64,000 bases of DNA from Cellulomonas cellasea (GTDB lineage Bacteria; Actinomycetota; Actinomycetes; Actinomycetales; Cellulomonadaceae): NCBI RefSeq assembly GCF_006538745.1, contig NZ_BJLR01000009.1, positions 1 through 64,000 on the forward strand, in the 5' to 3' direction. The translations under genes were made by a program, and so were the position numbers. The notes below the pieces were generated by a model that ran no database searches, had not been told where the DNA came from, and saw only the letters and a program-made list of their open reading frames with translations. Below are positions 3,089 to 8,028 of the stretch, in pieces (position 1 is the first letter of the stretch; the number at the start of each line of letters is the position of its first letter).

Positions 3089-4756
3089 TCAGCGCGCGGC
3101 CGGCCGCGTCTCGACCGTCACGACGCCCACCACGTAGTCGTCGTCGTCCGGCGCGGCCGAGGTGGGCGTCAGCGTGGCCGTCGAGCCGGCGGTCGTGACC
3201 CGCGAGAAGCCCTTCGCGTCGACCAGCAGCGAGTTCGGGAAGGCGTAGCCCGTCGCCGTGCTGTCGAAGGCGTTGTCCGGGCTCCCCACGGCCGCGCCGG
3301 CGCGCTTGGGCGTCAGCGGGAAGCCGTCGAGGAGCAGCTGGTCGCCGCGCAGCCCGCGGTCGCCCTCCCACGCCACGACGCCGACCCGGGTGCTGCCGCC
3401 GGGCTGGGTCGCGACCGTCAGGCTCGGGCCGGTGACGTCGGCCACGCGCAGCGGCGTGTCGTGCACCGCGACCTGGCCGCCCGACGCGTCCGCGTAGACG
3501 ACGACGAGGGCCCAGCCGGCGTACGCGTCGACGAGCGAGCCCTCGCGGAGCTCGGCGATGTCCGCGACGGACCACACGCCCCCGCGGTGCTGCGACACGA
3601 GCGCCGTGACGTCGGCGAACGCCTGGAACTCGCTCGGCCGGCCCGAGCCGTGCTGGGCGAGCACCGTGACCCTGCCGGTCACGGGCGCGTACGCGGCTGC
3701 ACCGGGCGGGCGGACCTCGATGCGGTCCACCGTCGGGAGCGGGTTCGCGCGCGGGTGGACGCTGTTCGAGGCCCAGTACAGCCCGGCCCAGGCGACCTGC
3801 CGGCCGGCCGGGAGGTCGAGCGTCGCGGAGGACGAGACCGAGTCCCCGCCCGCGGCGTTGAGCGGGGTCAGCGAGACGTCGTCGCTGTCCGACGTGCCCG
3901 CGAGCACCGCCGCGCACGTGTCGCCGGAGCCGCGGGTCGTGCACGTGAGGAGCGGCGCGCCGATCTCGGTTACGGCGTACCCCCCGGCGGGCGTGCTGTA
4001 GCGCGGCGTCGGCGGCGGAGTGGGGCTGTCGGTCGGCGTCGGGGTCGGGGTCACGCTCGGCGTGGGCGTCGGGGTGACCGACGGGGTCGGCGTCGGCTCG
4101 ACGGACGGCGTCGGGGTCGGCGTGACCGACGGCGTCGGCGTCGGCTCGACGGACGGCGTCGGGGTCGGGGTCGGGGTCGGGGTGACCGAGGGGGTCGGCG
4201 TCGGCGTGACCGACGGCATCGGCGTCGGCGTGACCGACGGGGTCGGCGTCGGGTCGGTGCCGTACGGGAGCGCCGTGACCCCGACCTTCGCCGCGGGGAA
4301 CGGTCCGTCGACGCCCGGCGTCTCGATGGCGAGCTCCGCGGTCCCGAGGTCCCCGTGCTCGGACATCCCGTTCTTCACGAGCCGCGCGCTGACCTGGAGG
4401 TCCGAGCCCGCAAGGAGCCGCGCGCCGGTGCACACGACGGTGTCCCCGCCCGGTCCGGGCTCGTAGGACGGCTGCGGCGGGCCGCACGTCCAGCCGGGCG
4501 CGGTCACGGGGTCCGGCTGCGCCCAGCGCGCGCCGTGGGGTGCGGTGAGCCGGAGGGTGGGGACGTCGACCGTGCGGCCGCCGACGTTCGTGACCGTCAC
4601 CGGGATGTCGACCGCGCCGTCGGGCCCGACCAGCTCGACGCCCCGCGCGGAGGACGTGACCTGCAGGTACCCGTCGACCCCGAGCCCGAGGCGCTGGTTC
4701 TGGCTGCGGCCCGGGGCGTCCGGCTGCAGCGAGTAGACGAGCGCCGCCCCGGGCAC
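3089..4756 (-). CDS. C-terminal extracellular part of the sigma fusion, downstream of the amber codon
   Basis: Same frame as the sigma part. The first available start after the amber codon is GTG at 4756, giving 555 aa, but no convincing ribosome site precedes it, so independent translation is doubtful. It contains another WTCGP-type beta module (about residues 30-160), a Pro-Thr-Pro-Ser linker of short repeats (about 185-260), and a final domain of about 290 aa ([11 protein letters not shown] ... [14 protein letters not shown]). That last domain recalls secreted actinobacterial proteins with DUF3344-like beta folds. It has no signal peptide or membrane anchor of its own, which supports its having been part of the upstream protein. 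Confidence 0.6.
4026..4262. repeat. Degenerate PTPTPSV-coding tandem repeat
   Basis: The linker of the sigma-fusion tail is coded by short repeats alternating PTPTPSVT and PTPTPSVE; a unit of about 48 bases recurs, with degenerate shorter copies on either side. Because the repeat is so regular, two other frames are also open through it. Copy number is likely to vary between strains. Confidence 0.7.
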
Positions 4757-4852
4757 GCGCGCCGCGGAGGCGTCGGCCCACAGGTCGAGCGTGAGGTCGA
4801 TCCCGTGGCCGCGGCTGGGCAGCTGGTGCCCGGTCGCGAGGCCGCACGTGAC

Positions 4853-7057
4853 CTAGTCGCCTCCGGCCGCCGAGGCGGCGATGCAGGACCACGGCAGGCG
4901 GGCGCTCGACGGGTCGGTGTGCACGCCCGGCGGCAGCTGGAGGACGACCCCGGCGGCGGCGCTCGTGCTCTCGCCCGCGTTGAGCAGGTCGAGCGTGAAG
5001 GGGCGCGCGTGCTCGGCGTCGCCCGAGGGAACGACGAGCGGGACGGACGTGGCGGTCCCCCCGTGGGCCAGGCGCGCGGCCGAGGCGGTGATCGGGGTGC
5101 GGAGCGAGATCGGGGGCCCGGCGGTGAGGCCGGTGCCGCGGATCGCGATCGTGACCTCGGCGTCGTCGCGGGCGTCGACGGACTCGTCCGCGACGACCTG
5201 CAGGACGAGGCGCGCGCTCGCGTTCGGCGGCAGCGTGGCGAGCGTGCACTCGGCGACCGAGCTGCCGCCGACGGCGCTCCGGGCCGGGCCGCAGGTCCAC
5301 GTCGTCGACTCGGCGGCCACGGCGAACCGCCCGGCGGCGCCGCCCGCGAGCGCGACGGGCGCGAGCTCGGTGCGGACCTCGTCGATGCTCACGCCGCTCG
5401 GCAGCGTCACCGTCGCGACGAGGTCCGTCGCGGGGAGGCCGCCGCTGTTGACGAGCTCGACGCTCAGCCGGTTCGACGCCCCCGCGGTCAGCGTCACGGC
5501 GGCCTGCGTGGTCGCGACGCCGATGGTCGCGGGGACCGGCGGCGGCGTGGTCTCGTCGGGGTCCGGCTCGGGCTCGGGGTCCGGCACAGGCTCGGGGTCC
5601 GGGGTCACGTCGGGGTCCGGCTCGTCGTCCGCACCGGTGCCCGGGGCCGTCGTCGGGACCGTGCGCGGGCCGGTACGGCTCGGGACGGTGGTGTCGTCCT
5701 CGTCCGAGGGCGTGGCGGCGTCCGCGTCGAGCTCGGTGCCGGGCTCGGGGTCGAGCGTCGGCAGGTCGGTCGGCGCGATGCTCGGCAGGACGGACGGCGT
5801 CGGCGTCGCGGTCGGGCGCAGGGTCGAGCCGGGGGTCGGCGACGCGGAGGCGACCGGCCCGTCGGCCTCGTTCGTGGGTGCGGCGTCGCCCGAGAACACG
5901 CCCAGGACCCCGCCGACGGCCACCGCGGCACCGACTGCGACCGTCGCCGCGACCGCCCCGAGCACCCCGACGGGCAGGGCGCCGACGAGCGCCGCAAGCC
6001 CGGTGGCCCCGGCGGCGGCTGCCGAGCCCGCCGCGACGCTGGTCGTCGCCCCGACCGCACCGGCACCGACCGCGACGCTCGCCGCGCCGGTGCCCGCACC
6101 GACGCCTGCTCCTGCGCCCGCACCGGCTCCCGCGCCCGCACCGGTTCCCGCGCCGGCCCCGGCGGACGCGCCGGCACCCGCACCGGCCCCGGCGGTCCCC
6201 GCAGTCCCAGCCTCGCCGAGCGCCGCGAAGCCCGACGCGATGCCGCCGCCGACCGGCAGGCCGTGCGACAGCGCGCCGAGCCCGAGCACGCCCAGCACGA
6301 GCGGCGCGATGACGACGCGCATGCCGTGGTTGACGTCGCCGAGCTCGAGCAGCAGCGCGCGGCAGTCCCCGCACGTCTCGACGTGGGCGTCGACCTGCGC
6401 GGTCTCGCGCTTGGCGAGCCCCCCGCGGACGTACGAGCCGAGCTTGCCGGAGACGCCGCGGCAGCCCTCGGTGAGCGGCTCCTGCAGGTGCTCCTGGAGG
6501 TACGCCTGGCGCAGGCCCTCGCGCGCCCGGTAGGCGAGCGCGGCGACGCCGTTCGCGGTCAGCCCGAGCAGCGGGGCGATCTGGGCCGGGTTCATCGCCT
6601 CGACCTCGGTGTACCAGAGCACGGCCTGCCAGCGCTCGGGGAGCGTGCGGTAGGCGCGGGAGACGACGCCGCGCTCGAAGCCCTCGAGCGCGGGGTCCTC
6701 GGTCGAGGCGGCCGGGCCGACGGCGGACTCGAACGTCGTGACGTCGTCGGTCGGCTCGACGCGGCGTCCGCCCTGCACGCGCAGCATGCCGAGGCGGCGG
6801 ACCACGGTGAACAGGTACGCGCGGAACGCGACGTCCGGCCCGCCACCGGTCTGGATGATCGAGTAGACCTTCGTGAACGCGTCGGCGACGACGTCCTCGG
6901 CGTCCGCGGCGGAGTTCGTGTACTGGCGCGCGACGGCCCAGGCCGCTCCGGCGTGCCGCTCGTAGAGGTGGCCGAACGCGTCCGCGTCGCCGGTCCGGGC
7001 AGCAGTGATCAGCTCGGCGTCGCTGAGGACGGTGTCCTCGACCCCGGCGCTGCTCAT
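4853..7057 (-). CDS. ECF sigma factor fused to zinc-finger anti-sigma segment, membrane segments and extracellular region (first part)
   Basis: The 734-aa product of the first part. Sigma region 2 is at about residues 25-95 and region 4 at about 130-190 (RTLPERWQAVLWYTEVE, then an HTH). A zinc-finger anti-sigma motif follows (H225, C229, C232 in VDAHVETCGDC). Then come a membrane segment at about 247-264, a Gly/Ala-only stretch at 285-335, a second hydrophobic segment at 355-388, a Pro/Thr/Asp-rich linker and adhesin-like beta modules. The ATG at 7057 was chosen because GAGGAG lies just upstream and sigma region 2 starts right after it; longer starts give low-complexity sequence. Actinobacterial ECF groups with built-in anti-sigma and membrane domains are known (ECF52/53-like, from memory). 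Such a protein could sense the envelope and hold its own sigma at the membrane. Confidence 0.85.
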   Translation of the reverse strand: MSSAGVEDTVLSDAELITAARTGDADAFGHLYERHAGAAWAVARQYTNSAADAEDVVADAFTKVYSIIQTGGGPDVAFRAYLFTVVRRLGMLRVQGGRRVEPTDDVTTFESAVGPAASTEDPALEGFERGVVSRAYRTLPERWQAVLWYTEVEAMNPAQIAPLLGLTANGVAALAYRAREGLRQAYLQEHLQEPLTEGCRGVSGKLGSYVRGGLAKRETAQVDAHVETCGDCRALLLELGDVNHGMRVVIAPLVLGVLGLGALSHGLPVGGGIASGFAALGEAGTAGTAGAGAGAGASAGAGAGTGAGAGAGAGAGAGVGAGTGAASVAVGAGAVGATTSVAAGSAAAAGATGLAALVGALPVGVLGAVAATVAVGAAVAVGGVLGVFSGDAAPTNEADGPVASASPTPGSTLRPTATPTPSVLPSIAPTDLPTLDPEPGTELDADAATPSDEDDTTVPSRTGPRTVPTTAPGTGADDEPDPDVTPDPEPVPDPEPEPDPDETTPPPVPATIGVATTQAAVTLTAGASNRLSVELVNSGGLPATDLVATVTLPSGVSIDEVRTELAPVALAGGAAGRFAVAAESTTWTCGPARSAVGGSSVAECTLATLPPNASARLVLQVVADESVDARDDAEVTIAIRGTGLTAGPPISLRTPITASAARLAHGGTATSVPLVVPSGDAEHARPFTLDLLNAGESTSAAAGVVLQLPPGVHTDPSSARLPWSCIAASAAGGD

Positions 7058-7254: not shown

Positions 7255-8028
7255 GTGACGACCACAGGACCGGACAGCAGCCAGGCAGTTCCGCCGGCTC
7301 TCCGCGAGCGCTGGCGCAGCCAGAGCGCCGAGTCGGTGTGGCTTCGACCCGCCGACTGGTACCACCCCGCCGTCGACGCGGTCGTGGAGGCCGTGCTCGC
7401 CGGGCGGGACCCGTCGGCAGCGGCGGAGCGCCTCGGCGAGGTGCGCGGCGGCGCGGGCGTCGGCATCTCCGAGGCGATCGAGGACCTCGCATGCCTGTAC
7501 CGCTCGACCGGGGCCGTCGAGCCGCCGCTCGCGGTGGTGCGCGCGCTGTGCGAGGGCTGGTCCTCGGCACAGGGCGGCGCGCTGCTCATGGGCTCGTGCC
7601 TCGACCCCGAGTCCGGCCTGCCGACGCGCGACTACCTCGTGACGCGGCTCGGCGAGACGTACGGCACGGCCGAGCGGGAGGACACGTTCGCCCAGCTCAC
7701 GCACTGCCTCGTGCTCGTCGACGTGGCCGCCGCCGAGGTGTCGCCGTGGACGCGCATGGCGCGCTCGGCCGCCGTCGGTGCCGCGCTGCGCAACGCGTAC
7801 GGCCCCGGGCACCCGATGGCGACGCTCGGGGGCGGGCTGTTCGCCGTCCTCGTCGAGCGGGACCCCGAGCTCGGCCCGGGCATCGCGGTCGCGCGCCTCG
7901 AGATCACGCACCAGGCCGAGCAGCTCGAGGTCACCGACCTCCTGCGGCAGCCGCCGCGCATCTGGACCGAGCAGCTCCCGCGCACGCACGAGCGCGCGGT
8001 GCAGCTCCTCGCCGAGATCTCCCGCTGA
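7255..8028 (+). CDS. Degenerate GGDEF-like protein
   Basis: 257 aa, GTG start, diverging from the sigma-fusion gene across about 200 bases. The middle (LDPESGLPTRDYLVTRLGETYG, about residues 120-142) resembles the D.LTGL.NR..L..RL stretch that opens a GGDEF diguanylate cyclase domain, and the ordering of helices and strands fits. No GG(D/E)EF active-site loop is present, so cyclase activity is unlikely. The first 110 residues are helical, without membrane segments or signal. Possible roles are signalling or a c-di-GMP-related scaffold. The divergent arrangement with the sigma gene suggests shared control. The family assignment is by pattern only. Confidence 0.6.
   Translation: MTTTGPDSSQAVPPALRERWRSQSAESVWLRPADWYHPAVDAVVEAVLAGRDPSAAAERLGEVRGGAGVGISEAIEDLACLYRSTGAVEPPLAVVRALCEGWSSAQGGALLMGSCLDPESGLPTRDYLVTRLGETYGTAEREDTFAQLTHCLVLVDVAAAEVSPWTRMARSAAVGAALRNAYGPGHPMATLGGGLFAVLVERDPELGPGIAVARLEITHQAEQLEVTDLLRQPPRIWTEQLPRTHERAVQLLAEISR

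Follow-up and report, generated by a model that had tools for sequence, protein, structure and literature searches.

Several sigma factors of the ECF class are fused, within a single polypeptide, to their own membrane-bound extensions. SCO4117 of Streptomyces coelicolor, an ECF52 protein, is described in the accessible part of the literature as consisting of a sigma domain, a zf-HC2 zinc finger, a transmembrane part, a proline-rich extension, and an extracytoplasmic module (PMC5826349). When SCO4117 was cut to its sigma domain, a delay was still seen, which was less than that of the full deletion, and expression of the gene itself was activated, according to the same excerpts (PMC5826349). For the Streptomyces clavuligerus ECF52 ortholog, a stop that splits off the distal module is reported, and in the excerpts the authors voice the suspicion that the sequence is in error (PMC5826349). 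Groups ECF48, ECF52, and ECF53 are characterized, in the text available, by fused zinc-finger and membrane extensions, and activation by proteolysis of the tether is expected (PMC8999054). The effect of premature stops has been described for IutY of Pseudomonas putida: the sections at hand report that 39 of 46 selected constitutive clones had premature stops, and that the stop mutants were constitutively active and fully RseP-dependent, except for the sigma-only one (PMC5411451).

The window analyzed here (the whole stretch of 64,000 nucleotides) is the start of a contig in a 4.73-Mb draft genome of 50 contigs. On its minus strand, the frame 7057–3089 contains a single internal stop, TAG at 4855–4853 (codon 735), in the context GGC GAC TAG GTC ACG TGC; the translation thus agrees with the initial annotation, which had described this frame as open save for one TAG. 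The frame encodes 734 residues ahead of the TAG (7057–4856) and 587 beyond it (4852–3092). By itself, a long open frame past the stop is weak evidence, because the genome is so GC-rich, and among the 103 judged orthologs there are 16, counting that of the window, in which at least 300 open same-frame codons follow the gene's own stop. Homology beyond the stop is therefore the deciding evidence. In the nearest relative examined (G005), both halves correspond to one unbroken protein of 1308 residues, with which the 587 residues past the stop share 81% identity over their full length; the sigma part is 99% identical between the two. This unbroken ortholog and the domain matches described below bear out the earlier proposal of one gene in which a sigma factor is joined to membrane and sensory portions. 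The comparison confirms that the TAG at 4853–4855 is present in the assembly and lies inside one gene, whose inferred ancestral extent, covering an ECF sigma factor, zinc finger, membrane segments, and long ectodomain, is 3089–7057.

The sigma-70 regions 2 and 4 and the zf-HC2 zinc finger occupy residues 1–241 (6335–7057, minus strand), as assigned with Pfam and TIGR02937. In the front half, Sigma70_r2 scored 41.8 bits (cut-off 24) and Sigma70_r4_2 scored 21.2 bits, below its cut-off of 25.7, and the 62 bits of TIGR02937 (cut-off 42.9) identify the protein as an ECF sigma factor. The zinc finger, fused behind the sigma domain at residues 199–233, scored 31.8 bits against a cut-off of 22.2. A hydropathy scan located hydrophobic segments at about residues 242–271 and 340–393 with an Ala/Gly-rich stretch between them (5879–6334, minus strand), which are predicted to insert into the membrane, and the translation shows a Pro/Asp/Thr-rich linker at residues 401–514 (5516–5857, minus strand). 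Predicted membrane segments followed by a long Pro-rich extension are the layout of the ECF52/ECF53 type.

The ectodomain begins with three DUF11-like modules (residues 516–935; 4253–5512, minus strand), the limits of which were set by eye. Their matches to DUF11 (PF01345) reached 14.2 and 16.7 bits in the window, below the cut-off of 24.6, and the family was found above the cut-off in two relatives, L031 (32.9 bits) and L032 (54.6 bits). Alignment with relatives placed the TAG in the second module, three residues ahead of its second cysteine, so that the stop does sit inside a module, as had been proposed. The accompanying claim that this module lines up with two sister modules held for the repeat as such, since pairwise alignment shows a clear relationship between modules 1 and 3 (z 6.9; the score was reached by 0 of 500 shuffles), but for the interrupted module 2 the relation to either neighbour was weak (z 2.4 in each case; 16 and 13 of 500 shuffles), and it has the W-x-C ... 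C pattern in common with both. A structural model of the three-module region, built from a two-sequence alignment, was poor (mean pLDDT 55.8, pTM 0.35) and was given no weight. The modules are followed by a Pro/Thr-rich (TPTP) linker at residues 936–1017 in the translation (4007–4252, minus strand) and by a C-terminal beta-rich domain at residues 1018–1322 (3092–4006, minus strand), which would be missing from a truncated product and was delimited by sub-cut-off Pfam matches, a profile, and a model. We use "DUF3344-like" for this domain as a label only, because the Pfam scores for DUF3344 (PF11824), 20.1 and 21.9 bits, are below the cut-off of 27.2. The model of the domain was beta-rich (pTM 0.79, mean pLDDT 68.7). 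Naming it by fold was rejected, because the structure ranked first in the PDB, PNGase F (TM 0.25, rmsd 13.6), resembles it too weakly for a function to be named, and sequence searches with E values up to 1 gave no relative of solved structure. Neither the two halves nor the rescanned parts matched a Pfam carbohydrate-binding family at E values up to 1; a weak NPCBM-associated match scored 15.2 bits against a cut-off of 24.4.

The distribution of the gene was examined in the genus and the family. Both the sigma ortholog and a match to the back half were found in seven of seven genus genomes, and tblastn located the divergently oriented neighbour gene (7255–8028, plus strand) beside the sigma gene in all six other genus regions. 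In the family, the sigma front end was present in 131 of 150 genomes (E up to 1e-50). Regions were taken from 117 of the 131; 14 were left out, 12 having the match at a contig edge by coordinates and two having distant (41–49%) matches. Together with two named loci, this gave 119 loci, the first 20 regions having been picked for short or middling frames. After removal of 11 genes running off their contigs, one region from the wrong side (G058), three masked regions, and one duplicate, 103 orthologs were judged. A gene was taken as broken when homology was found past its stop (E up to 1e-6), a test that is blind to tails unlike those of any other ortholog. Homology past the stop was seen in four of the 103, namely the window, G006, G075, and G004; the match in G004, 40 residues in another frame past the natural end, was judged to lie outside the gene. 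By this test 100 of the 103 orthologs are unbroken, with lengths of 652–2149 residues (median about 1320), two of them being no longer than 734 residues and ten shorter than 1000; a smaller count over 89 loci gave 74 of 77. The three broken genes differ in kind: the window carries the in-frame TAG, G075 a frameshift with continuation in another frame, and G006 an adapter-like sequence with in-frame continuation. The window is thus the sole case of a clean in-frame stop with a homologous in-frame continuation among the 103. The initial annotation had suggested comparing the gene in relatives, where two naturally separate genes might be encountered; no such pair was found in the 103 judged orthologs. 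Its suspicion that a mutation or a sequence error is the likely cause of the TAG is supported.

The C-terminal domain was detected in 30 of the 103 judged orthologs with a profile built from 12 sequences; these include G001–G005, the five genus members besides that of the window in which the gene is unbroken. Sequence comparison shows a family with a conserved front of sigma factor, zinc finger, and membrane part and an ectodomain varied in length and make-up. In two genomes (L111 and L112; G064 and G087), there are natural forms of 652 residues in which the DUF3344-like domain starts at about residue 371, so near to the membrane part that three DUF11-like modules would not fit in between. In G003 (L052), the frame continues roughly 95 residues beyond the shared C-terminal domain; the tail may be naturally longer in this protein, or the stop may have been lost. 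In G090 (L106), an ortholog of 953 residues ends with TGA, and after position 2868 there are 539 further open codons in the same frame, with no detectable homology to other ectodomains; this could be a natural end or another broken gene. The copy in G075 (L102, on C1 of a single-contig genome) is frameshifted before about residue 380, near the membrane and linker region, and about 700 residues of homologous ectodomain remain intact in another frame. In G006 (L050, on C11), the adapter-like sequence lies within the sigma gene at about 5950–6030, with the in-frame continuation after it. We take this insert to be a Nextera transposon adapter, and it is probably an assembly artefact. At least seven of the 11 orthologs (among 119) that run off contigs do so in Ala/Gly-rich or Pro/Thr-rich stretches, which suggests that such repeats break short-read assemblies.

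At the position of the TAG, G005 has a valine codon that differs at all three bases, and, of the 17 aligned relatives, the 14 with a residue in this column have V, A, G, I, or T. The ancestral codon cannot be inferred, because the G005 codon differs throughout and the residue varies, and the earlier suggestion of a one-base change from TCG is left unsupported for the same reasons.

TAG is an ordinary stop in this genome. It ends 44 of 400 genes called crudely in 450 kb of the genome, a set in which the two halves of the sigma gene counted as two genes; the front half is among the 44, leaving 43 of 398 others. Nine of the 56 other called genes in the window also end in TAG, as do 20 of the 100 orthologs judged unbroken. 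Release factor RF1 is present (467 bits against a cut-off of 423), and no CTA anticodon occurs in the 49 tRNA genes detected (Rfam search with E up to 0.001, typing with ARAGORN), within the reach of a search that a very odd tRNA would escape. The tRNA set and RF1 rule against a reassigned TAG or a suppressor tRNA. Since TAG functions in this genome like any other stop, the codon has no weight as evidence for unusual decoding. RNA structure downstream was rejected as a readthrough signal, as 48 of 200 shuffled sequences fold at least as well (z −0.62). An independent start of the back half also appears unlikely: among ATG, GTG, and TTG codons sought in frame within 150 codons past the stop, there were no ATGs and only four GTGs. 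The first GTG, at 4756, has no Shine-Dalgarno-like stretch in the preceding 20 bases by eye, and the fourth, at 4435, has GGGGA nearby. The back half is probably not translated separately. We also scanned 450,197 of the 4,734,929 bases for same-frame interruptions and inspected nine of the 25 best candidates, including the TAG in the window. No second interruption of this sort was found in the nine, the other eight resembling, on visual inspection, borders between genes or frames that do not code.

The constraint on either side of the stop was estimated from the window and G005 (L048). The dN/dS ratio was 0.019 for the sigma domain and zinc finger and 0.27–0.45 for segments of the ectodomain, among them 0.43 in the part of the ectodomain that precedes the stop, 0.31 in the modules that follow it, and 0.305 in the C-terminal domain; the 65 codons directly past the stop gave 0.45, the same as the stretch directly before. 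By these values, a fast-changing sensor is carried on a near-frozen front end in one protein. Relative-rate counts past the stop with 16 outgroups assigned 22 changes to the window and 20 to G005 (10 vs 9 in the modules, 12 vs 11 in the C-terminal domain). With genus outgroups only, the counts were 11 vs 6 in the modules and 15 vs 15 in the C-terminal domain, and the slight excess on the window side in the modules is not clear. The probability of the 22 vs 20 split under neutrality along the whole window branch was 0.0006, with the constrained rate taken as 0.31. Neither dN/dS nor the relative rates showed clear decay past the stop; therefore, the lesion is either recent or false, unless the tail continues to be translated. 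"Recent" is meant loosely, because the polarised counts, by an estimate from their interval, leave room for an untranslated tail over as much as roughly half the window branch and because the modules gave 11 vs 6.

The lesion is absent from the orthologs and homologous sequence continues beyond it, and we consider it probable that the window carries a recent nonsense allele, private to the strain or species, of a membrane-tethered ECF52/ECF53-like sigma factor. We rank second, as an unlikely explanation, an error of base calling or assembly, in which case the living strain would have an intact gene for 1322 residues. The lack of clear decay, the 100 unbroken orthologs, the draft state of the 50-contig assembly, and the adapter-like sequence that breaks the G006 copy all fit an error of this kind. 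Against it, the TAG site is neither a simple repeat nor a homopolymer, draft assemblies seldom contain single-base substitution errors, and the candidates inspected in the 450-kb scan yielded no second such interruption. The stop in the S. clavuligerus ortholog, suspected as an error by its authors in the text available, is a precedent in favour of an error (PMC5826349).

Two other explanations appear considerably less probable. In a stronger version of the nonsense-allele reading, loss of the distal ectodomain could be a recurrent selected switch from a ligand-gated to a constitutive or re-tuned sigma factor, with the sigma part under strong constraint and such alleles arising repeatedly in this gene class, a view to which we assign a low probability. 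It would account for the frameshifted G075 gene, whose remainder is intact in a single-contig genome, for the natural short forms among the orthologs, and for a sigma part that stays 99% identical while the ectodomain drifts. The partly available reports of the stop-split ECF52 gene in S. clavuligerus (PMC5826349) and of the constitutively active IutY stop mutants (PMC5411451) point the same way. The clear interruptions, however, amount to two in 103, both known from assemblies alone, and the lesions in G075 (at or near a low-complexity stretch) and S. clavuligerus (in the proline-rich region) lie where sequence errors are likely. Translational readthrough, in which some ribosomes would decode the TAG and produce a minor full-length sensor beside a major truncated one, seems the least probable of all. 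The conservation of the 587 open codons past the stop is consistent with it, and the lack of decay is equally expected of a tail that is still translated. The option of readthrough, raised in the initial annotation, nevertheless gains no positive support from the tRNA set, RF1, or the unremarkable RNA fold, and the residue at the TAG column is variable. Moreover, no judged ortholog other than the window has a stop with a homologous in-frame continuation once G006, where the stop is in adapter-like sequence, is set aside. Among the matches listed by a literature search on readthrough, none described readthrough in such a gene.

If the TAG is a recent nonsense mutation, RF1 would terminate translation there, and the resulting protein of 734 residues would extend from the sigma domain through the zinc finger, membrane segments, and linker to roughly the middle of the second ectodomain module. 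Missing from it would be module 3 and the DUF3344-like tip, the end that presumably binds a ligand or contacts the wall. The initial annotation had envisaged that truncation releases the sigma and membrane part from most of the ectodomain; the front half, however, retains the predicted membrane segments. Because these segments precede the stop, the product should stay tethered in the membrane with a shortened ectodomain, which suggests that the sensor is cut short and not that the sigma factor is set free. Signalling would then be mis-set: the tether may become a default protease substrate, making the sigma factor independent of the signal, or it may be unable to receive the signal. By analogy with the IutY stop mutants and the proteolysis model of ECF52, we regard such mis-setting, in either direction, as likely. 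The analogy with IutY may fail, because the anti-sigma part of IutY is periplasmic and the zinc finger here should be cytoplasmic. The delay that persisted in the sigma-only SCO4117 strain also counts against this reading (PMC5826349).

Provided that the stop is genuine, the strain offers a naturally truncated mutant of the little-studied one-protein signal systems and would show the fate of a tethered sigma factor once its sensor tip is cut off. The conserved front and varied ectodomain would be of use in finding out which signals these proteins respond to. A recurrent switch, if true, would be the natural counterpart of the IutY stop mutants obtained in the laboratory.

The comparison with the known systems can be drawn as far as the accessible parts of the reports extend. 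Like ECF52, the window protein is actinobacterial and has a sigma domain, a zf-HC2 zinc finger, a membrane part, and a proline-rich extension. It differs from ECF52 in its distal part, which consists of three DUF11-like modules and a DUF3344-like domain and in which a carbohydrate-binding family was not found with Pfam. No paper joining DUF3344 with a sigma factor was found in the literature searched, a result that may differ in the wider literature. The zinc-finger and membrane extensions fused to the sigma factor are also those of ECF48 and ECF53, a likeness by build, with group assignment being a matter for the ECF classification models. IutY is similarly a fused sigma/anti-sigma membrane protein, the activity of which is changed by premature extracytoplasmic stops; unlike the window protein, it comes from a Gram-negative bacterium, has a periplasmic anti-sigma function and an outer-membrane receptor as its partner, and its stops were selected in the laboratory. 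A precedent is the S. clavuligerus gene, whose stop lies in the proline-rich region, whereas that of the window lies inside a module. Because this ECF52 stop has been published (PMC5826349), we regard the gene in the window as a further case of a fused ECF sigma factor shortened by its allele and not as a new kind, and the stop looks like a recent, ordinary mutation that truncates a protein, not like a departure from normal decoding.
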